Shown one piece after another: positions 3,101 through 60,840 of a stretch of 64,000 bases of DNA (positions within the stretch are counted from its first letter, which is position 1; every line of letters starts with the position of its first letter). This stretch comes from Halomonas sp. TA22 (lineage in GTDB: Bacteria > Pseudomonadota > Gammaproteobacteria > Pseudomonadales > Halomonadaceae): assembly GCF_013009075.1 (NCBI RefSeq), contig NZ_CP053108.1, positions 2,108,001 through 2,172,000 of the forward strand. The letters run 5' to 3'. The notes below the pieces were generated by a model. That model was not told the DNA's origin. It saw only the letters and a list, made by a program, of their open reading frames with translations, and made no database searches. The position numbers and the translations under genes were made by a program.

Positions 3101-4126
3101 ATGAAATACCAACAACAAGTCAGTTTCCTTGCCTCCTCGATCAAGCCCGGCTTGCCCAGGCTTGTCACCGGCATATCGTGCCTGGTGCTTAGCATCGGCC
3201 TGGTCGGAGCCGCTCAGGCAGACTGGCCAGAGGACCCCATTGAAATCGTCGTGCCCTTCGATGCCGGCGGAAGCGCAGACCGCATGGCGCGCGGCCTCGC
3301 TGAGCACATGTCGCCTCGACTTGGCGTGCCGATAAGCATCATTAACCGCCCTGGTGGTGCCGGGGCACTTGGTGCTACCTATTTTCAACAGCAGGCCGCT
3401 AATGGCCAGACACTGCTTGTGATACAGGCTTCCCCCTACCTGGCTAGTGCTATTGAGATCGGGGGCGCACCGGTGAAATGGGATGACTTCGAACTGCTCA
3501 GTGCCCAGTGGAACGACTACGGAATCGTTGCGGTACATAACGAAAGCCCTTATCAAGACCTCGAATCACTGGTCGAGGCGATGCGCGATCCTGGTGAGGT
3601 CAGTTCCGGCATTATTGTTGGAAATGGCGGTCATCTGCAGACATTAGTAATGATGGATGCCCTCGACATTGAGCACGATAACGTGCGCTTCGTTACTTAC
3701 AGCGGTGGCGCCCCGCTACGAGCGGCGCTGGCAGGTAATCAAGTCGACTTTGAGATCCTCGCTGCCGAGGCAGCGCTGAGCATCAGCGATGAAATACGGG
3801 CCCTAGCGGTGGTCAATGACCAACCCAGCGACAACTGGGACGCTCCACTATTCAACGACGTAATGACGAGCCTAGGCGTTGATCCTTTGCCGCTGATCGG
3901 CGGCAACGTCACCGGGCTAATCGCCCACGCCTCGCTGCAGGAAGAGTATCCGGAGCGCTACCAGCGGCTAATACAAGCCTATCAGGACACCCTCGAAAGT
4001 GACGAATTCCAAGTCTGGTCCACCAAAGCAGGTATCGGGGCCGACTGGGTCTCACCGGAAGAGAGCCAGGCACTGGTCGACGAGGCCTACCGCGCCATCC
4101 AGCAGTATGCCCCACTCTTGCAGTAA
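3101..4126 (+). CDS. tctC: Tripartite tricarboxylate transporter substrate-binding protein (Bug family)
   Basis: 341 residues with a long N-terminal signal region ending near AQA-D (about residue 40), then the Bug-family core WPEDPIEIVVPFDAGGSADRMAR. These periplasmic proteins bind carboxylates (citrate, malate, aromatic or branched acids) and deliver them to TctAB in the inner membrane. It is the first gene of a five-gene plus-strand set tctC-tctB-tctA-leuC-like-leuD-like and has a promoter with two inverted repeats upstream. The ligand cannot be read from sequence; the neighbouring hydro-lyase and lyase point to an unsaturated or branched di- or tricarboxylate. Confidence 0.85.
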   Translation: MKYQQQVSFLASSIKPGLPRLVTGISCLVLSIGLVGAAQADWPEDPIEIVVPFDAGGSADRMARGLAEHMSPRLGVPISIINRPGGAGALGATYFQQQAANGQTLLVIQASPYLASAIEIGGAPVKWDDFELLSAQWNDYGIVAVHNESPYQDLESLVEAMRDPGEVSSGIIVGNGGHLQTLVMMDALDIEHDNVRFVTYSGGAPLRAALAGNQVDFEILAAEAALSISDEIRALAVVNDQPSDNWDAPLFNDVMTSLGVDPLPLIGGNVTGLIAHASLQEEYPERYQRLIQAYQDTLESDEFQVWSTKAGIGADWVSPEESQALVDEAYRAIQQYAPLLQ

Positions 4127-53312: not shown

Positions 53313-54332
53313 TTACTTCTTGCCCGTCCGGCTAGCAGCGAAGTTGGCGTCGATTCGTTGGCGCAGATAGTCCTTGGCGGAAATCGGCGGATACTTTCCT
53401 TCCTGCCCCTGGATCATCACATCCTTGTTAGCCTGGCAGAAGAACGCCATGCTGTAGCGCGACCCTTGGGACTCGTCAGGCTTGGGCATGCGGACACGGT
53501 GCAGGGTCGATTTCAGTCGGTCGTCGCTCCAGCGCATCAGCATGTCGCCGATGTTGCAAGTAATGACGTCACCCCGCGGAATCACGGTGGACCACGCCTG
53601 CCCATCGGCATCGCCCTTGGCGTCACGGCCGGGACATACCTGCAGCCCACCCTGCCCCTCTTGCTGGAAGACCATGGTCAGGCAATCGAAATCGGTGTGG
53701 GCGCCGGCACGCCATAGCGAAGGGTCGCGGCCAGCATCTGCCATCATCGGCAGGTAGTGAAGCAGACGCAAGGTGCTCTGGTATTCGGGCGAGCTACGGT
53801 CGTGAGCGCGGGTGAAGAAGTCGCGGTCGAACCCCAGCCGCTCGGCAAAACAGGAGAGCACTCGCATGCCGAGCCACCAGGCCTGATACTCGAAGTCGAG
53901 CACCAGGCGCTGAAACTCCGCCAGGGTCACTTGGTCCGGCCATAACCCCTGCATGTGCGGTAGCGTCACCTGAAAAGACTCCTTCTGATCGGCAGTACGC
54001 GTCGAGGGTCTGACCTGTGACTTGAATTCCCAGCCCGCATTCAGCCCCTCCTTCAGCGGAAACTTCGCCTTGGCCGCTTCGGGCAAATCGAAGAAGTGTT
54101 CTGAAATTCTAAAAGCCTGGCGAATATCCTCGGTGGCAATGCCATGGTTGACCAGCTGAAAGAAGCCCACTTCGGTAGCGGCCCGCCACAGCTGTTCGAT
54201 GATCGCCTCACGGCGGGCATCGAAATCGCTGAGATCGATTATCGGGATCTCGCGTTCGGTTTCACGCCCGATGCCGCCCAGAGTGCTTTCCAGCTGCAAC
54301 TCCTGAAGGCCGTATTGTGTAGTGTCACTCAT
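53313..54332 (-). CDS. 2-oxoglutarate/Fe(II)-dependent oxygenase (isopenicillin N synthase-like)
   Basis: 339 residues with the DIOX N-terminal block (IPIIDLSDFDAR, EVGFFQLVNHGI) and the complete iron triad His212-x-Asp214 (GAHTDF) and His278 (STLHRV), plus the 2-oxoglutarate pair Arg292-x-Ser294 (RYSM). It should hydroxylate or demethylate a small molecule using O2 and 2-oxoglutarate. Its leader carries riboswitch A, and it stands beside an NMT1-type importer and an oxopurine deaminase. A purine such as xanthine or a methylxanthine is therefore a likely substrate; this is inference from regulation and context. Confidence 0.82.
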   Translation of the reverse strand: MSDTTQYGLQELQLESTLGGIGRETEREIPIIDLSDFDARREAIIEQLWRAATEVGFFQLVNHGIATEDIRQAFRISEHFFDLPEAAKAKFPLKEGLNAGWEFKSQVRPSTRTADQKESFQVTLPHMQGLWPDQVTLAEFQRLVLDFEYQAWWLGMRVLSCFAERLGFDRDFFTRAHDRSSPEYQSTLRLLHYLPMMADAGRDPSLWRAGAHTDFDCLTMVFQQEGQGGLQVCPGRDAKGDADGQAWSTVIPRGDVITCNIGDMLMRWSDDRLKSTLHRVRMPKPDESQGSRYSMAFFCQANKDVMIQGQEGKYPPISAKDYLRQRIDANFAASRTGKK

Positions 54333-54375
54333 TGAAAATTCTCCAATTCAGGGGCGGGGTGATCCGCCGTGCATT

Positions 54376-54421
54376 GGAGCAATGCCGGGCAGCCAATCTG
54401 ACTGCCTGCCGCTTCTACTCC
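54376..54421 (-). promoter_or_regulatory. NMT1-motif (xanthine-I) riboswitch A with SD-sequestering switch
   Basis: On the minus strand the leader of the oxygenase gene reads GGAGTAGAAGCGG, a GGCAG/CTGCC hairpin, then GGCATTGCTCC. P1 is GGAG with CTCC. The 3' strand CTCCAAT (plus 54373-54379) is also exactly complementary over 7 bp to ATTGGAG (plus 54341-54347), which contains the ribosome binding site of the oxygenase. P1 and this second stem exclude each other, so ligand binding should free the site (ON switch). Class assignment is from my memory of the NMT1/xanthine-I motif. Confidence 0.72.
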
Positions 54422-54436
54422 GGTGGTGGCTTTAGC

Positions 54437-55225
54437 CTAGCGCTCGTCGTCGGAGGGCAGGCTCCAGCCGAAAAACAGCCGTTGTGCCAGCTGTACTGAC
54501 TTGAACAGCACCAGGCTGACCGCAGACAGGAAGAACAGCGCGGCAAAGGCCTGGGGAATCCTGAAATAGGAGGTCGAGAACTGGACGAAATAGCCCAGCC
54601 CCTGTTCGGCCGCCACGAATTCGGCGATCACTGCGCCGATGATGGCCAGCGTGATTGCCACTTTGAGGCCGCTGAAGATATGTGGCACCGCGTAGGGCAG
54701 ACGCACTTGCCACACTTCCCTGACAGGCGAGGCACGAAGCGAACGAGACAGCTCAAGCATCTCTTTCGGCGTTGCCAGCATACCGGTAGTGGTAGCGACC
54801 ACGATTGGGAAAAACGAGATCAGGCAAGCAATGACCAGGCGCGGCGCCTCACCCGCACCTAAAATCACAATCAGTAGCGGCGCCACGGCCACGATGGGGG
54901 TCGACTGGATGACCACCAGACAGGGAAACAGCGTCCGGGTGAGAAATTCTGATCGCACCATGAGGACCGCCAGCGGCAGACTAATCAGGATCGACAATCC
55001 AAAGCCCAGTAGTGCTACACGTAGCGTGGCCCACAGGTGCACCATCCAGCGGCTCATGTCGACCGACATGAAGGCTTCGGCAATGACGCTAGGAGCGGGC
55101 AAGATGAAGCTGGGCACGTCGAACAGTCGGCATAGCAGCTCCCACAACGGCAACAGGGCCAGCAGCGCAAACGCGGGCAATATTCTGTGGCCTATATCCG
55201 AGAATAACACTTTAAGATTGCTCAT
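54437..55225 (-). CDS. ABC transporter permease (SsuC/ThiX type)
   Basis: 262 residues with about six membrane segments and the EAA loop EMLELSRSLRASPVREVWQVRLPYAVP. AAGGAG precedes the ATG. It is the third gene of the importer operon (binding protein, ATPase, permease), followed by the oxygenase gene with its own riboswitch leader in the gap. With only one permease gene the channel is probably a homodimer. Confidence 0.88.
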   Translation of the reverse strand: MSNLKVLFSDIGHRILPAFALLALLPLWELLCRLFDVPSFILPAPSVIAEAFMSVDMSRWMVHLWATLRVALLGFGLSILISLPLAVLMVRSEFLTRTLFPCLVVIQSTPIVAVAPLLIVILGAGEAPRLVIACLISFFPIVVATTTGMLATPKEMLELSRSLRASPVREVWQVRLPYAVPHIFSGLKVAITLAIIGAVIAEFVAAEQGLGYFVQFSTSYFRIPQAFAALFFLSAVSLVLFKSVQLAQRLFFGWSLPSDDER

Positions 55226-55236
55226 CTTGCTCTCCT

Positions 55237-56085
55237 TTACGACACGCGACGGATGGCAAAAGATGCAGCATCACGCTTGCCCTGTTCGCAGGCCAAGTGG
55301 GGCGCTGGCGCCTCATTTGGTTGAGGGCCGAAGATATGTCGACGGATGCGCTGGGTGTAGGCGGTGAATGCGGTCAGTTCGATGGTCGCCGCGCTGCGTG
55401 GACGTGGGAGATCGATGTCGATGCTATCGGCGACAGTGGCCGGCCGCGGACTCATCACCAGCACCTTGTCGGCGAGCAGCACCGCCTCGGCAATCGAGTG
55501 TGTGATGAACAGCACTGTCTTGGGGCGCTCTCCCCAGATACGCAGCAGTTCGAAGCCCATCTGTTCTCGGCTCAGGGCATCGAGTGCCGAGAACGGCTCG
55601 TCCATGATCAAAATGTCCGGATCGAGCAACAGTGCTCGGGCAATACCCACGCGTTGCTGCATGCCACCGGAGAGCTCATCCGGGCGCTTATCGACGAATT
55701 CGTCCAGCCCGACCATATTCAGTAACTCTCGAGCCCGAACATGATCCTGGCGCCCCACTATGCGCCCCTTGTGACGAAGGGGAAAAAGCACGTTATTAAT
55801 GACATTCAGCCAGGGCAGCAAGGTGGGCTTCTGAAACACGATACCCACATCGTCACCGGGTTCGCTAACCGGCCGCCCGAAGATACGCACCTCACCCTGG
55901 GTCGGCTGCATCAACCCGGACAGCAAGCGCAGCAAGGTTGACTTGCCACAGCCGGAGGGACCCACGACGGCCACAAACTGATGGCGGGCGATTTCGAAAT
56001 TAACGTTCGTCAATGCCTGCACCTCTGCCTTGCGCCTGCCTCTATAGCAGTGGCCGACCCGATCGAAAGCGACATGCGGTTTCAT
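55237..56085 (-). CDS. ABC transporter ATP-binding protein (SsuB/ThiZ type)
   Basis: 282 residues. Walker A GPSGCGKST near residue 42, Q-loop VFQKPTLLPW, signature LSGGMQQRVGIARA, Walker B ILIMDEPFSALDA and switch histidine in ITHSIAEAV. Start overlaps the binding-protein stop by 4 bp. It energises uptake through the adjacent permease. Confidence 0.9.
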   Translation of the reverse strand: MKPHVAFDRVGHCYRGRRKAEVQALTNVNFEIARHQFVAVVGPSGCGKSTLLRLLSGLMQPTQGEVRIFGRPVSEPGDDVGIVFQKPTLLPWLNVINNVLFPLRHKGRIVGRQDHVRARELLNMVGLDEFVDKRPDELSGGMQQRVGIARALLLDPDILIMDEPFSALDALSREQMGFELLRIWGERPKTVLFITHSIAEAVLLADKVLVMSPRPATVADSIDIDLPRPRSAATIELTAFTAYTQRIRRHIFGPQPNEAPAPHLACEQGKRDAASFAIRRVS

Positions 56086-57086
56086 TGTGTGGCTCCCGGC
56101 ATGAAGGAACGATCGACGATCGCTTCAGGGTCTAGCATGTCCATATCTGCCTCCTGGGCTCGGGCGGTCCACTCCCAAGTGGTCGCCAAGCGCTCGGCAT
56201 CGAAGGCTCCCAGGCCATGCGCATCGCTTGCCTCGTTGTAAACCAGCGGACGAATCGAGCGAATGGTGGCCTCCGCCATCTCCACGTCGACTTCCGGCAC
56301 GACCGCATGCACGGCTTTAGCCGCCTCGTGGGGGTTTTCCCAGGTATATTCGATGGCCTTGGCATAGGCGCTGACGAAGCGGCGCGCCACGTCGGGACGT
56401 TCGTTGAGGAAGCGCTCGCTGGCAATCAGAGAAGTGGCGTAGAACTCCAGCCCGGCGTCGTACCAGGGCATGACGTGCAACGTCTTCCCAGCGGAGCGTG
56501 CGTTGGTCGCGTAGCGCTCATGGTCGGTAATCCAGCTGATCACCACATCGGTACGTCCGGTCAGCAGCATCGGGGCCAACGTGCCCGGGTCGCTATTAAT
56601 CAGCTGGATACTCTCCTCGTCCACGCCGTTGATATCCAGCAGTAGAGGCAGGAAGAGATTGGAGGATGTGAAAGGTGAGGTAGCAATCTGCTTGCCCGCC
56701 ACATCGGCGACCTCTTTGATGCCGGACTCTTCCAGGGTATAGAAGGCATGTGGGGCTTCGCTGAATACCGAATAGACGGCTTTGACGGGCATCTCGCCCT
56801 CCGCCCGGGCCATCATCAGCGCGGTAATGTCGGAAAGACCGATATCGGCTTGACGGGTCGCCAGCTTGGTCATGGCATCGTTGGAGCCACGTCCTTGGGA
56901 AATACTCACGTCAAGCCCCTCTTCTTCAAAGAAACCCTGTTCCAGTCCGACATAGATCGGCGCCTTATCGCCACCCGGTAGCCAGTCGAGTTGGAACGTC
57001 ACCTGATCGGCTGCATGGGTTAATCCGGCCATCAGGACCAGCACGGATACTATTGCAAGTCTGGGTATTAAGGGGGCTGTTTTCAT
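56082..57086 (-). CDS. NMT1/THI5-like ABC substrate-binding protein
   Basis: 334 residues with a signal peptide ending near THA-AD (residue 25). The mature start QLDWLPGGDKAPIYVGLEQGFFEEEGLDV is the NMT1/THI5 signature, used for pyrimidine-like thiamine precursors and for purine-type ligands. It is the first gene of the importer operon and follows a 155-nt leader that begins with riboswitch B, so the ligand is probably a purine related to xanthine. The NMT1 motif is named for its association with this protein family. Confidence 0.88.
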   Translation of the reverse strand: MKTAPLIPRLAIVSVLVLMAGLTHAADQVTFQLDWLPGGDKAPIYVGLEQGFFEEEGLDVSISQGRGSNDAMTKLATRQADIGLSDITALMMARAEGEMPVKAVYSVFSEAPHAFYTLEESGIKEVADVAGKQIATSPFTSSNLFLPLLLDINGVDEESIQLINSDPGTLAPMLLTGRTDVVISWITDHERYATNARSAGKTLHVMPWYDAGLEFYATSLIASERFLNERPDVARRFVSAYAKAIEYTWENPHEAAKAVHAVVPEVDVEMAEATIRSIRPLVYNEASDAHGLGAFDAERLATTWEWTARAQEADMDMLDPEAIVDRSFMPGATQ

Positions 57087-57241
57087 TGAAAATCTCCCAA
57101 GTCGTCAAAGGGCACGGGGCCGCATGACAGCCGGTTGGCAATGTATTGGCTTGGGTACGCTGGACAGACGGGAAGGGATATGAGGATAGAGGTCCTGCAT
57201 CGTCACGCCCCGACCTGCCGCGTTACCGCGCCAACCGGCTG

Positions 57242-57295
57242 CGTGTCTAGCAATGACCCAGGCCCGAAGGCCCTGACCGCTTCTACTCAGACACG
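57242..57295 (-). promoter_or_regulatory. NMT1-motif (xanthine-I) riboswitch B
   Basis: Minus strand: P1 CGTGTCT pairs perfectly with AGACACG; inside it lie GAGTAGAAGCGGTCAGG, a hairpin with TTCG loop, and GGTCATTGCT. This copy has the longest P1. Immediately after P1 a 12-nt segment CAGCCGGTTGGC (plus 57230-57241) is perfectly complementary to GCCAACCGGCTG (plus 57128-57139) near the end of the leader. The role of that long-range stem is not clear, and no direct anti-SD partner was found for this copy. Confidence 0.75.
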
Positions 57296-57300
57296 AAATT

Positions 57301-57632
57301 ACTGATTCATTTCTACGTAATCTGTCTTGCGCTAGGCGCTCGACATTTAATGTTAGCATCGAACATGCCAGCGAGGGCCTTAGGCTAAAAAACACTGATT
57401 TTATAAAAGGTTGCTTGAGCTTGTTGTTTCTCGAGCCAGACCAACATGCACCTCAATGAGACAGCGAGCTTCACTCTCTGCGCCAAAAATGAGCGAGATA
57501 ATCAAAAAGACAGACCTCACGATAAATTAAAATTCTATGTAAAACGCCGCACAACAACCAAAAGCTGGCCATTGGACAAGAATTTGCTAGAAGTAGCGGT
57601 GCAGCTGGCCCTCCGGGGCCTTTCATTATTGC
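57301..57632. other. Divergent promoter region between importer and deaminase
   Basis: About 330 bp without a gene between riboswitches B and C. It is more AT-rich than its surroundings and must contain both promoters. ACATTTAATGT (57343-57353) is a perfect palindrome with one central base and could be an operator. GGCCC-TCCG-GGGCC (57607-57620) followed by TTTCATTATT is a possible weak terminator or leader hairpin just before riboswitch C. No credible coding frame is present. Confidence 0.4.
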
Positions 57633-57674
57633 GGAGTAGAAGCGGTCAGGGGCGGCGCCCCGGGACATTGCTCT
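57633..57674 (+). promoter_or_regulatory. NMT1-motif (xanthine-I) riboswitch C with SD-sequestering switch
   Basis: Plus strand: GGAGTAGAAGCGGTCA, a GGGGC-GGC-GCCCC hairpin, then GGGACATTGCTCT. P1 is GGAG with CTCT (one G-U pair). Downstream, GCTCTG (57670-57675) can pair with CAGGAGC, which contains the ribosome binding site of the deaminase gene, with one bulged G. As in copy A, this alternative excludes P1, which predicts that ligand turns translation on. The aptamer ends 26 nt before the TTG start. Confidence 0.72.
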
Positions 57675-57700
57675 GAAGGTAACCCACAGGAGCAGATGCT

Positions 57701-59056
57701 TTGGCCTACCTCATTCGCAACGCAACAGCGATCTTCACTTCTCAAGCTTCTAACGCCACTGATATTCGCATTCGTGACAACCGTATCGTCGAGATCGGCG
57801 ATGACCTCATGGTGCAGGAGCATGAGCGAATTATCGATGCCCAGGGCTGCGTGATCTGGCCGGGGTTGGTAAATACTCATCACCATCTGGCTCAGTCAAT
57901 TCTCAAGGGGGTACCCGAAGGCCTCAACCAAGGACTCGGAGACTGGCTAGGCTCGGTGCCCTACCGTTTCTGGCCCAAGATCACACCGGAGCTGATGTAT
58001 CACGCGGCGCGGCTTGGCCTGTATGAGCTGTTGTGTTCCGGTGCCACCACCTGTGCCGATCACCATTATCTCTACCATCGCAACACCAGCCCGGAAGTCG
58101 AAGCCGCCGTGTGGCAGGCTGCCGATGAGCTCGGCATCCGCCTGGTACTTTGCCGAGGGGGGGCCACCGAGGCCGGTAGTCACAAGGGCATGGCGCGCCA
58201 TGCCATCGAACCAGAATCGGTCGAACAGATCGTCATGCGCCTGGAGAATACCCGGAAGCAGCAGCATCAACCCGCTGCCGATGCCATGCGCCGGCTGGTG
58301 GTGGCGCCCACCAGCTTGGTTCACTCAAGTACCCCAGACGCTTTGAAAACACTGGCAGCCTATGCACGCGAGCATGGGCTGCGCCGCCACTCGCATCTGC
58401 TCGAGGTAGGCTTCGATGACATCCAGGCACGCGAAAAATACGCCATGCGCGCCATCGATTACGCTGCCGAATGCGACTGGCTAGGGGAGGACGTTTGGTA
58501 TGCCCACCTGGTGCAGAGCGATGCTTATACCATCGCGCGGCTGGCCGAAACCGGCACCGGTATTGCCCATTGCCCCACCTCTAACTGCCGCTTGGGCAGT
58601 GGCGTGGCACCGGTGCCCGAGATGGCGCGACTGGGCGTGCCGATTAGCCTAGGTGTAGACGGTTCGGCTTCATCGGAGTCGGGTTCGATGCTACAGGAAC
58701 TTAATCTCACCTGGCTGCTGCACCGCGCTGTAGGAGGCCCTGAAGCTACCCGGCTCGAGACGATACTGGAGTGGGGCAGCCGTAGTGGTGCCGCCATTCT
58801 GGGGCTCCATGACGTAGGTGAAATCGCTGTCGGTAAAGTGGCCGACCTGGTGCTCTACGATATCGACCAGCCGCGTTTCGCCGGCGTGCATGTACCGCTC
58901 ATGGCACCTCTGCTGTGTGCCGAACCCACCACCGTTAAATACAGCTTCGTCAATGGTCGAGTGATAATAGAAGATGGAAACGTACTCGGCCTAGAGCAGC
59001 GCGAGCTCACCCAACAAGTCTGCGAGAGCGTCAGCAAGTTGCTTGCGATGGTGTGA
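57701..59056 (+). CDS. 8-oxoguanine deaminase-like amidohydrolase (TrzA/AtzB family)
   Basis: 451 residues from a TTG at 57701 preceded by CAGGAG. Metal-site motif NTHHHLAQ (His60/His62), SGATTCADHHYLY near residue 113, HSHLLE (His230/His232), His269, GTGIAHCPTSNCRLGSG and Asp320 in GVDGSASSES. The pattern closely follows 8-oxoguanine deaminase of Pseudomonas, which converts 8-oxoguanine to urate; guanine or isocytosine-type deamination is an alternative. Its leader carries riboswitch C. Product urate or xanthine fits the purine-oxidation reading of this locus. Confidence 0.85.
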   Translation: MAYLIRNATAIFTSQASNATDIRIRDNRIVEIGDDLMVQEHERIIDAQGCVIWPGLVNTHHHLAQSILKGVPEGLNQGLGDWLGSVPYRFWPKITPELMYHAARLGLYELLCSGATTCADHHYLYHRNTSPEVEAAVWQAADELGIRLVLCRGGATEAGSHKGMARHAIEPESVEQIVMRLENTRKQQHQPAADAMRRLVVAPTSLVHSSTPDALKTLAAYAREHGLRRHSHLLEVGFDDIQAREKYAMRAIDYAAECDWLGEDVWYAHLVQSDAYTIARLAETGTGIAHCPTSNCRLGSGVAPVPEMARLGVPISLGVDGSASSESGSMLQELNLTWLLHRAVGGPEATRLETILEWGSRSGAAILGLHDVGEIAVGKVADLVLYDIDQPRFAGVHVPLMAPLLCAEPTTVKYSFVNGRVIIEDGNVLGLEQRELTQQVCESVSKLLAMV

Positions 59057-59259
59057 TTTCACGCGCTTTTGTTGGACGTAATCGCACCTTGAATATTCAT
59101 TTTACTCGTCCTGCGACGAGGCAGAGCTGCTTTCAACGCAACAGTCAAAACAGCGCTGAAATTTCCTGCTCAGGCGAGCTGGATTTCTCGGCTACGTTAT
59201 GGGAGAACCTTGTCAGGTCATATGGCCCATCAAACGCTTGAATGAAGAGGAATAACAAG

Positions 59260-60840
59260 ATGTTCAAGAAGACCCTGCTTGCCACGGCCGTGATCGGCGC
59301 CATGCTGGCGTCGGCGGCCCAGGCCGAAACGCTGCGCTGGACGCGCTCCGCCGACAGCCTGACCATGGATCCCCACTCCCAGAACGAAGGGCCGACCCAC
59401 TCCGTCAACCATCAGATCTTCGATACCCTCATCTACCAGGACATGGACGTGGAGTACCAGCCGGGCCTGGCGACCGAGTGGCACGTCAGCGAGGATGACC
59501 CCAGCGTATGGGTGTTCAAGATTCGCGAAGGGGTGACCTTCCACGAAGGACAGGCACTGACCGCCGACGACGTGGTCTTCTCGCTCAACCGCGCACGTCA
59601 CGAACACGCCGACATGCGCGGCCTGTTGACCTCCATCGCCGAGGTGCGCGCCGTCGACGACTATACCGTCGAGGTGGTGACCGACGGACCCAACCCGCTG
59701 CTGCCCAACAACTTCACCAACCTGTTCATCATGAGTCGCGAGTGGGCCGAGGAGCACGGCGTCGAGGAGCCGCAGAACTACGCCGCCGGCGAGGAAACCT
59801 ATGCGGTGCGCAACGCCAACGGCACCGGCCCGTTCCGGGTCGAGAGCCGCGAGCCGGACGTGCGAACCGTGTTCGTGCGCAACGACGACTACTGGGGTAT
59901 CGATCACTACCCGATGGAGATCACCCGCCTGGTGTTCACGCCGATCGAATCGGCCTCGACCCGCGTGGCGGCACTGCTCTCCGGCGAGGTCGACTTCCTG
60001 CAGGAGACCCCGGTGCAGGACATCGAGCGCCTGGCCAATGCCGATGGCATCAAGAACGAGCAGGGCGCCGAGAACCGCACCATCTTCCTCGGCCTGCGCG
60101 TGGATGGCGAGACGCTGGACAGCGTCGACGTCGACAGCAACCCCTTCGCCGACCGTCGCGTGCGCGAGGCGATGAACCTGGCCGTGGATGCCACCACCAT
60201 CCAGCGTGCCGTCATGCGCGGCAACTCGCAACCCGCCGGGATGATCGCCCCGCCCTTCGTCAACGGTTACAGCGAGGAGATGGACGAGGTGCTGCCGGCC
60301 GATATCGACCGCGCCCAGGAGCTGATGGAAGAGGCCGGCTACGGCGATGGCTTCCGCGTCACGCTGAACTGCTCCAACGACCGCTACGTCAACGACGAGC
60401 AGATCTGCCAGGCAGTGGTCAGCATGCTGGCGCGCATCGGCATCACTGTGGACCTGGTCGCCCAGACCCGCTCGCTGCACTTCGCCGAGATGGCTCGCGA
60501 GGAGTACGACTTCTACCTGCTCGGCTGGGGCGTGCCGACCATGGACTCGGAGTACGTCTTCAACTACCTCTACCACACCAAGGAGGATGATCGAGGCAGC
60601 TGGAACTTCACCGGCTACTCCGACGAGCGTGTCGACGAGCTGACCGTGGCGATGGGCCAGGAGATCGACGAGGAGGCACGCAACGAGATGGTCAGTGAGG
60701 CCTGGCAGATCGTGCATGACGAGGTTCTCTACGTCCCTATCCACCACCAGATGCTGACCTGGTCGATGCGTGCCGATATCGATTTCCAGGTGCAGAGCGA
60801 GAATACGCCGCACTTCAAGTACCTGCGCTTCACCAACTGA
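59260..60840 (+). CDS. Dipeptide/oligopeptide-type ABC substrate-binding protein (family 5)
   Basis: 526 residues from ATG 59260, preceded by GAGGA; the ATG at 59242 has no ribosome binding site. Signal peptide MFKKTLLATAVIGAMLASAAQA. The mature part has the SBP-bac-5 pattern: LRWTRSADSLTMDPH, LATEWHVSEDDPSVWVFKIREGVTFHEG and NGTGPFRVE. It binds peptides or other small molecules in the periplasm. First gene of a five-gene operon with permeases and two ATPases. Confidence 0.9.
   Translation: MFKKTLLATAVIGAMLASAAQAETLRWTRSADSLTMDPHSQNEGPTHSVNHQIFDTLIYQDMDVEYQPGLATEWHVSEDDPSVWVFKIREGVTFHEGQALTADDVVFSLNRARHEHADMRGLLTSIAEVRAVDDYTVEVVTDGPNPLLPNNFTNLFIMSREWAEEHGVEEPQNYAAGEETYAVRNANGTGPFRVESREPDVRTVFVRNDDYWGIDHYPMEITRLVFTPIESASTRVAALLSGEVDFLQETPVQDIERLANADGIKNEQGAENRTIFLGLRVDGETLDSVDVDSNPFADRRVREAMNLAVDATTIQRAVMRGNSQPAGMIAPPFVNGYSEEMDEVLPADIDRAQELMEEAGYGDGFRVTLNCSNDRYVNDEQICQAVVSMLARIGITVDLVAQTRSLHFAEMAREEYDFYLLGWGVPTMDSEYVFNYLYHTKEDDRGSWNFTGYSDERVDELTVAMGQEIDEEARNEMVSEAWQIVHDEVLYVPIHHQMLTWSMRADIDFQVQSENTPHFKYLRFTN

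Follow-up and report, generated by a model that had tools for sequence, protein, structure and literature searches.

Why a single purine-related locus should hold three riboswitches of one class, and in which direction each of them acts on its gene, are the questions raised by a 64,000-nucleotide stretch of the Halomonas sp. TA22 genome (contig NZ_CP053108.1, positions 2,108,001 to 2,172,000; hereafter the window). The three elements, here called copies A, B and C, resemble the xanthine (NMT1) riboswitch and lie ahead of a deaminase, an importer and an oxygenase gene, respectively. We favor, with somewhat better than even confidence, a reading based on sequence and folding in which this is a purine uptake and oxidation cluster whose riboswitches act on translation, copies A and C switching their enzyme genes ON.

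Three xanthine-class aptamers within 3.3 kb

The pattern GAGTAGAAGCGG-N(8-34)-CATTGCT is matched exactly three times in the window, at 54378-54420 and 57249-57288 on the minus strand and at 57634-57672 on the plus strand, and is not matched in any of 100 dinucleotide shuffles of the window. The family model (Rfam RF03054, Xanthine (NMT1 motif); gathering score 36 bits), whose use the initial annotation had proposed, matches all three sites: copies A (52.7 bits) and B (39.4 bits) exceed the cut-off, and copy C, at 35.5 bits, just misses it by 0.5 bit (E 4e-5 in the 6.3-kb stretch searched). The assignment to the NMT1 family made in that annotation is borne out, and its coordinates for the elements are correct to within a few bases. 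When the 3.73-Mb genome was searched with RF03054, using a first-look filter that limits what gets scored, only these three matches were found, all within 3.3 kb. The locus had been described as an unusually dense regulon; the density is confirmed for the copies found, but it is not peculiar to this locus since the triple recurs elsewhere.

Copy A precedes a PRK12393 deaminase, copy B a three-gene ATP-binding cassette (ABC) importer (57086-54437, minus strand) and copy C a 2-oxoglutarate (2OG)-Fe(II) oxygenase (54332-53313, minus strand). The same gene types are given for the class in the accessible text of Yu and Breaker 2020 (PMC7373994), namely an IPNS-like oxygenase, an NMT1/THI5-like importer and a PRK12393 deaminase, so that all three gene types first named for the locus are published partners of RF03054; both domains looked for in an IPNS-like oxygenase, DIOX_N and 2OG-FeII_Oxy, are present here. 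Judged by these matches, copies A and B belong to a riboswitch class already described, copy C is a borderline member by score, and all three stand ahead of genes of the types associated with the class. By family membership, the copies in the window would be expected to respond to xanthine, for which the dissociation constant (KD) of one RNA is about 3.7 uM, as compared to about 25 uM for urate (PMC7373994).

It is improbable, in our estimate, that any of the copies has become non-functional or now recognizes a different ligand. Such a change would be in line with the score of copy C just under the cut-off, with the U and A of its outer P2a pair, which are gaps in the RF03054 alignment, and with the core of B-type relatives in the family, which varies (GGTAGAAGCNG). 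Against it, the core of the C-type aptamer is invariant in six members of the family (Halomonadaceae).

The three-copy layout recurs in other genomes

RF03054 matches were found in 9 of 275 Halomonadaceae genomes, in a scan whose filters lose weak matches, and five of these nine, the TA22 genome included, have three. All five triple-copy genomes carry the oxygenase, the importer binding protein and the deaminase in the same order. A sixth genome of the family (G005) has the importer and oxygenase copies, and a match in another (G128; 28.5 bits, with no frame downstream) is probably due to chance. In wider sampling, TA22 included, matches are sparse: 16 of 390 genomes sampled from the order have one, as do 4 of 369 sampled from the taxonomic class. 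Among the matches listed (at least 120 loci from named genomes), Parahaliea maris has a triple with deaminase, importer and oxygenase, and Marinobacter mangrovi has a triple in which the gene of the first copy lies beyond the end of the locus. Because the triple is present in five genomes of the family and in Parahaliea, the three-copy layout is conserved and not peculiar to the window. Adjacent copies in opposing orientations have been described in H. intermedia (PMC7373994).

Other arrangements were seen among the related loci. L028 and L100 have three aptamers each, two of them in tandem upstream of the oxygenase and about 160-200 nt apart (at 3884 and 4045 in L028, at 2474 and 2672 in L100, plus strand), and no importer-linked copy was found in either locus. 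L051 and L059 were considered as triples and dropped as their third matches are poor. In L165, an aptamer at 1501-1556 (58.8 bits) has its core changed to GCGTTCAG and GGAAATTGC in place of GCGGTCAG and GGACATTGC; it precedes a frame that by eye reads like a Rieske oxygenase, with the Shine-Dalgarno sequence AGGAGCG.

The P1 strand as a predicted mask of the ribosome-binding site

In each of copies A and C, the sequence gives the 3' strand of the aptamer stem P1 two possible partners, namely the 5' strand of P1 and the ribosome-binding site of the gene downstream (Table 1). P1 and this mask are mutually exclusive, so that a bound ligand should leave the ribosome-binding site open. Control would most likely be exerted at the level of translation: without ligand, the P1 3' strand would mask the ribosome-binding sites of the deaminase and the oxygenase, and xanthine, urate or a close analogue would close P1, free these sites and turn both enzymes ON. 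The C-type leaders of six Halomonadaceae keep the alternative helix, with 95% of alignment cells paired, and the hairpin enclosed by it pairs in 87% of cells and has two of its five pairs changed on both sides.

To compare the two states, each leader was folded twice, once with the aptamer constrained to form and once without this constraint, and the energy needed to open the Shine-Dalgarno sequence was recorded, a lower cost with the aptamer corresponding to ON. Leaders were taken from the window and the related loci, where aptamers were located by regular expression (which misses some core variants, as in L165 and L179, and ends early in the first L100 copy) and start codons were picked by script; of 203 aptamer places, 11 were dropped for want of a detected frame and 8 because their leaders were not 12-260 nt long. 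Among leaders of up to 70 nt, with only exact repeats removed, a decrease in cost exceeding 1 kcal/mol is seen for 19 of 30 deaminase leaders and for 19 of 36 oxygenase leaders; an increase of that size is seen for 1 of the 30 and none of the 36. Oxygenase leaders of 130-260 nt show little direction (9 down, 6 up, n=22).

Controls were run on a non-redundant set of leaders of up to 70 nt with GGAG in the Shine-Dalgarno sequence (19 of 27 deaminase and 26 of 26 oxygenase leaders). The deaminase mean is 2.36, compared to 0.52 for unrelated leaders (p 2e-4) and 0.76 for shuffled spacers (p 3e-4), and the oxygenase mean is 1.34, compared to 0.34 for unrelated leaders (p 0.004). Medians of the sets are positive for five choices of RNA ends. 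In a second test, leaders more than 80% alike were merged, to 147, and the fit between P1 strand and Shine-Dalgarno sequence was compared with swaps among loci. The fit beats swaps among the 31 deaminase loci, where 9 of 2000 permutations were as good, and among the 24 deaminase loci with leaders of up to 40 nt (35 of 2000). The bases flanking GGAG are biased as well, with C following it in 17 of the 22 deaminase leaders that have GGAG (31 leaders in all) versus 89 of 309 other genes, and U preceding it in 19 of 33 oxygenase leaders (of 35 of up to 130 nt) versus 21%.

Evidence against the ON direction and the published OFF result

Several results weigh against the ON prediction. The mean of the oxygenase leaders (1.34) does not significantly exceed that of shuffled spacers with GGAG retained (0.92, p 0.16), and swaps among oxygenase loci were as good in 596 of 2000 permutations, so that part of the effect is inherent in CUCC facing any GGAG. 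No pair of the C-type alternative helix is changed on both sides and five of its seven pairs never vary; a fixed P1 and a fixed Shine-Dalgarno sequence would give the same conservation. The computed effect depends on the ends chosen, ranging over 0.06-2.0 kcal/mol for copy A and 0.01-1.55 kcal/mol for copy C (never negative), and from -0.68 to 2.71 for the oxygenase leader of a related genome, G026, whose deaminase leader shows no effect (0.01); for copy B the effect is 0.00. Depending on the ends, up to 2 of 19 deaminase and up to 1 of 26 oxygenase leaders fall below -1. Finally, C follows GGAG in 7 of 14 deaminase homologues without a detected aptamer versus 20 of 26 with one, a control group that includes L179, seemingly with a variant aptamer, and in which some Shine-Dalgarno matches look like coding sequence. 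The ON prediction is carried mostly by the deaminase controls.

The direction published for the class also stands against it. OFF was concluded from one E. coli reporter, in which the wild type of an H. intermedia representative was compared with one aptamer mutant (PMC7373994), and is restated by Xu et al. 2021 (PMC8266621); judged by titles and abstract openings, we found no report on direction beyond these two in the openly accessible literature. All three copies could be OFF in the same way, with the ligand repressing importer, oxygenase and deaminase together and so avoiding a build-up of oxidised purines, an explanation we consider rather unlikely. It has the reporter result and the authors' reading of the gene context on its side (PMC7373994). 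The same authors remark that no genes for degrading oxidised purines were seen, and that activation might have been expected in some species. The published comparison, on the other hand, used two media and no ligand series, and concerned a copy upstream of NMT1-type genes, and the leaders of deaminase and oxygenase genes are modeled to pair their ribosome-binding site with the P1 3' strand, predicting the reverse. That the class is not uniformly OFF, with deaminase and oxygenase members ON through the P1 strand as mask and the three copies of this locus using different platforms, one of them intra-operon, is in our judgment evenly balanced.

Copy C as a probable switch within the importer operon

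Copy C starts 11 nt downstream of the permease stop codon (which ends at 54437) and runs in the same direction. No promoter-like match to the sigma-70 consensus was found in the gap between permease and copy C, the single such match of the 6.1-kb stretch lying inside the oxygenase gene. Among non-redundant aptamers of this and related loci, a same-strand upstream frame (of at least 150 codons, such frames not being proven genes) has its stop within 150 nt for 32 of 56 oxygenase-linked aptamers, as against 8 of the 42 linked to an importer and 5 of the 31 linked to a deaminase. Given the distance to the permease stop, the gap without a promoter-like match and the similar placement of relatives, copy C is best read from its sequence context as an intercistronic switch. 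The initial annotation had given each copy a transcription unit of its own; this is only partly right, as copy C lies by position within the importer operon. The arrangement would allow the oxygenase to be controlled separately from the importer genes on the same mRNA. Transcription terminators were considered as well and rejected, terminator-like matches being no more frequent in the stretch than expected by chance (4 versus 5.2).

Copy B and the long leaders

Importer leaders form a distinct class: 38 of 42 non-redundant ones of 12-260 nt exceed 70 nt, and importer loci show no fit of P1 strand and Shine-Dalgarno sequence beyond swaps. This, together with the fact that the sole published direction found, OFF, comes from a copy ahead of NMT1-type genes (PMC7373994), would agree with split control, in which the same ligand turns the enzymes ON through copies A and C and the importer OFF through copy B. 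Folding lends it no direction, as importer leaders of 130-260 nt point both ways (7 down or ON, 4 up or OFF, n=40), and we consider it rather unlikely.

Other devices were sought in the long leaders. A helix competing with P1 (anti-P1) is slightly above controls in long importer leaders, being as good in 3 of 60 shuffles and 52 of 2000 swaps, and clearer in long oxygenase leaders (0 of 60 and 0 of 2000); for 10 leaders of unassigned genes it is matched in 0 of 60 shuffles and 9 of 2000 swaps. A Rho-type leader with C over G was rejected for copy B, as such an excess is not specific to the importer: it is seen in 31 of 38 long leaders of importer genes and likewise in 20 of 30 long leaders of oxygenase genes, and the mean skew is small (0.09 and 0.06, respectively). 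A leader peptide was likewise dropped, as the short frame in the window had no counterpart on an unsystematic reading of the leaders of relatives. In the copy B leader (57128-57241, minus strand), CAGCCGGTTGGC (57241-57230) and GCCAACCGGCTG (57139-57128) are able to form a helix of 12 pairs that encloses 90 nt.

The long deaminase leaders of L045, L100 and L110 have a second GGAGCAU-like copy and a GAUGCU strand able to pair with either, a possible relay. Relay platforms with a second GGAGCA-like copy were picked out by eye in four loci and not retained, their computed direction being mixed (L028 +1.2, L110 +2.1, L045 -1.2, L100 -2.1).

Genes of the locus

The features of the locus are collected in Table 1. 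The deaminase was first annotated as acting on oxopurines, which its family scores do not support: it passes the NCBIfam cut-off of PRK12393 'amidohydrolase family protein' (617.9 versus 543 bits) and misses that of the 8-oxoguanine deaminase PRK08203 (406.2 versus 532 bits). Its nearest solved chain is 2paj (phmmer E 3e-106), deposited as 'putative cytosine/guanine deaminase', a protein later described as an isoxanthopterin deaminase. A pterin or lumazine was considered as the true ligand of the riboswitches; isoxanthopterine is among the compounds listed in PMC7373994. The deaminase starts with TTG in the window and with ATG in relatives; an out-of-frame ATG at 57696 stands just upstream of the TTG at 57701 (57696-57703, plus strand).

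For the oxygenase, no NCBIfam match was found up to 0.001. The solved chain closest to it in sequence is 5c3p, a thymine dioxygenase (E 3e-26), as would suit an enzyme acting on a nucleobase. Taken together, the locus has the appearance of a cluster for the uptake and oxidation of purines, equipped with three riboswitches of the xanthine class. Downstream of the deaminase by 185 nt and in the same direction is an SBP_bac_5 binding protein (59242-60840, plus strand), and the frames that follow, to 63877, read like its importer. Elsewhere in the genome, a cluster of xdhABC and guanine deaminase at 3.03 Mb (G000:C1 3024000-3040000, L173) has no RF03054 match. The uricase family PF01014 has no match in the genome, other urate-degrading enzymes not having been searched for.

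Table 1. Aptamers, candidate regulatory strands and genes of the locus (window coordinates)
Feature	Position	Strand	Basis
Copy A, xanthine (NMT1) aptamer in deaminase leader	57629..57678	+	RF03054 52.7 bits, E 7.3e-9 (window search)
Copy B, xanthine (NMT1) aptamer, about 157 nt upstream of substrate-binding protein gene	57243..57293	-	RF03054 39.4 bits
Copy C, xanthine (NMT1) aptamer in the permease-oxygenase gap (intercistronic)	54372..54425	-	RF03054 35.5 bits
P1 3' strand of copy A, UGCUCU; can pair with GGAGCA (57689-57694), which includes part of the Shine-Dalgarno	57669..57674	+	Sequence; best helix
Shine-Dalgarno AGGAG plus CA; predicted target of the P1 3' strand in the ligand-free state	57688..57694	+	Sequence; helix fit
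CUCCAAU, P1 3' strand of copy C with 3' neighbors; alternative partner AUUGGAG	54373..54379	-	Six-genome alignment
Small hairpin between the two sequestor strands of copy C	54353..54368	-	2 of 5 pairs change on both sides in relatives
AUUGGAG, Shine-Dalgarno strand of oxygenase	54341..54347	-	Alignment
Amidohydrolase/deaminase, PRK12393, TTG start	57701..59056	+	NCBIfam NF009059 617.9 bits; phmmer 2paj E 3e-106
NMT1/THI5-like substrate-binding protein of ABC importer	56082..57086	-	PF09084 158.3 bits
ABC importer ATPase	55237..56085	-	PF00005
ABC importer permease	54437..55225	-	PF00528
2OG-Fe(II) oxygenase	53313..54332	-	DIOX_N 79.5 bits and 2OG-FeII_Oxy 69.4 bits

Significance and comparison with known systems

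As far as our literature search reached, two points are new: a conserved layout of three copies, one of them intercistronic, and the prediction of ON control for the enzyme genes, against the published OFF. If the enzyme-linked members are ON, the class would serve substrate induction of purine catabolism and not protection from purine build-up, and the oxygenase and deaminase would become candidate consumers of oxidised purines. Three natural copies in one locus would permit a direct test of direction.

The copies in the window share core sequence, P1/P2 architecture and associated genes with the published xanthine riboswitch RF03054 (PMC7373994). They differ in that the window has three copies in one locus, one of them intercistronic, whereas no three-copy locus was seen in the accessible text of that paper, and in that the published direction is OFF whereas ON is predicted for the enzyme genes of the window. 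The xdhABC/guanine deaminase cluster of the same genome is likewise directed at purine oxidation, but it is without an RF03054 match and uses a molybdenum enzyme in place of the 2OG oxygenase found here. In translational ON riboswitches, for example of the add adenine type, the ligand frees a masked ribosome-binding site. The same release is predicted for copies A and C; the aptamer differs, and the predicted mask is here the aptamer's own P1 strand.

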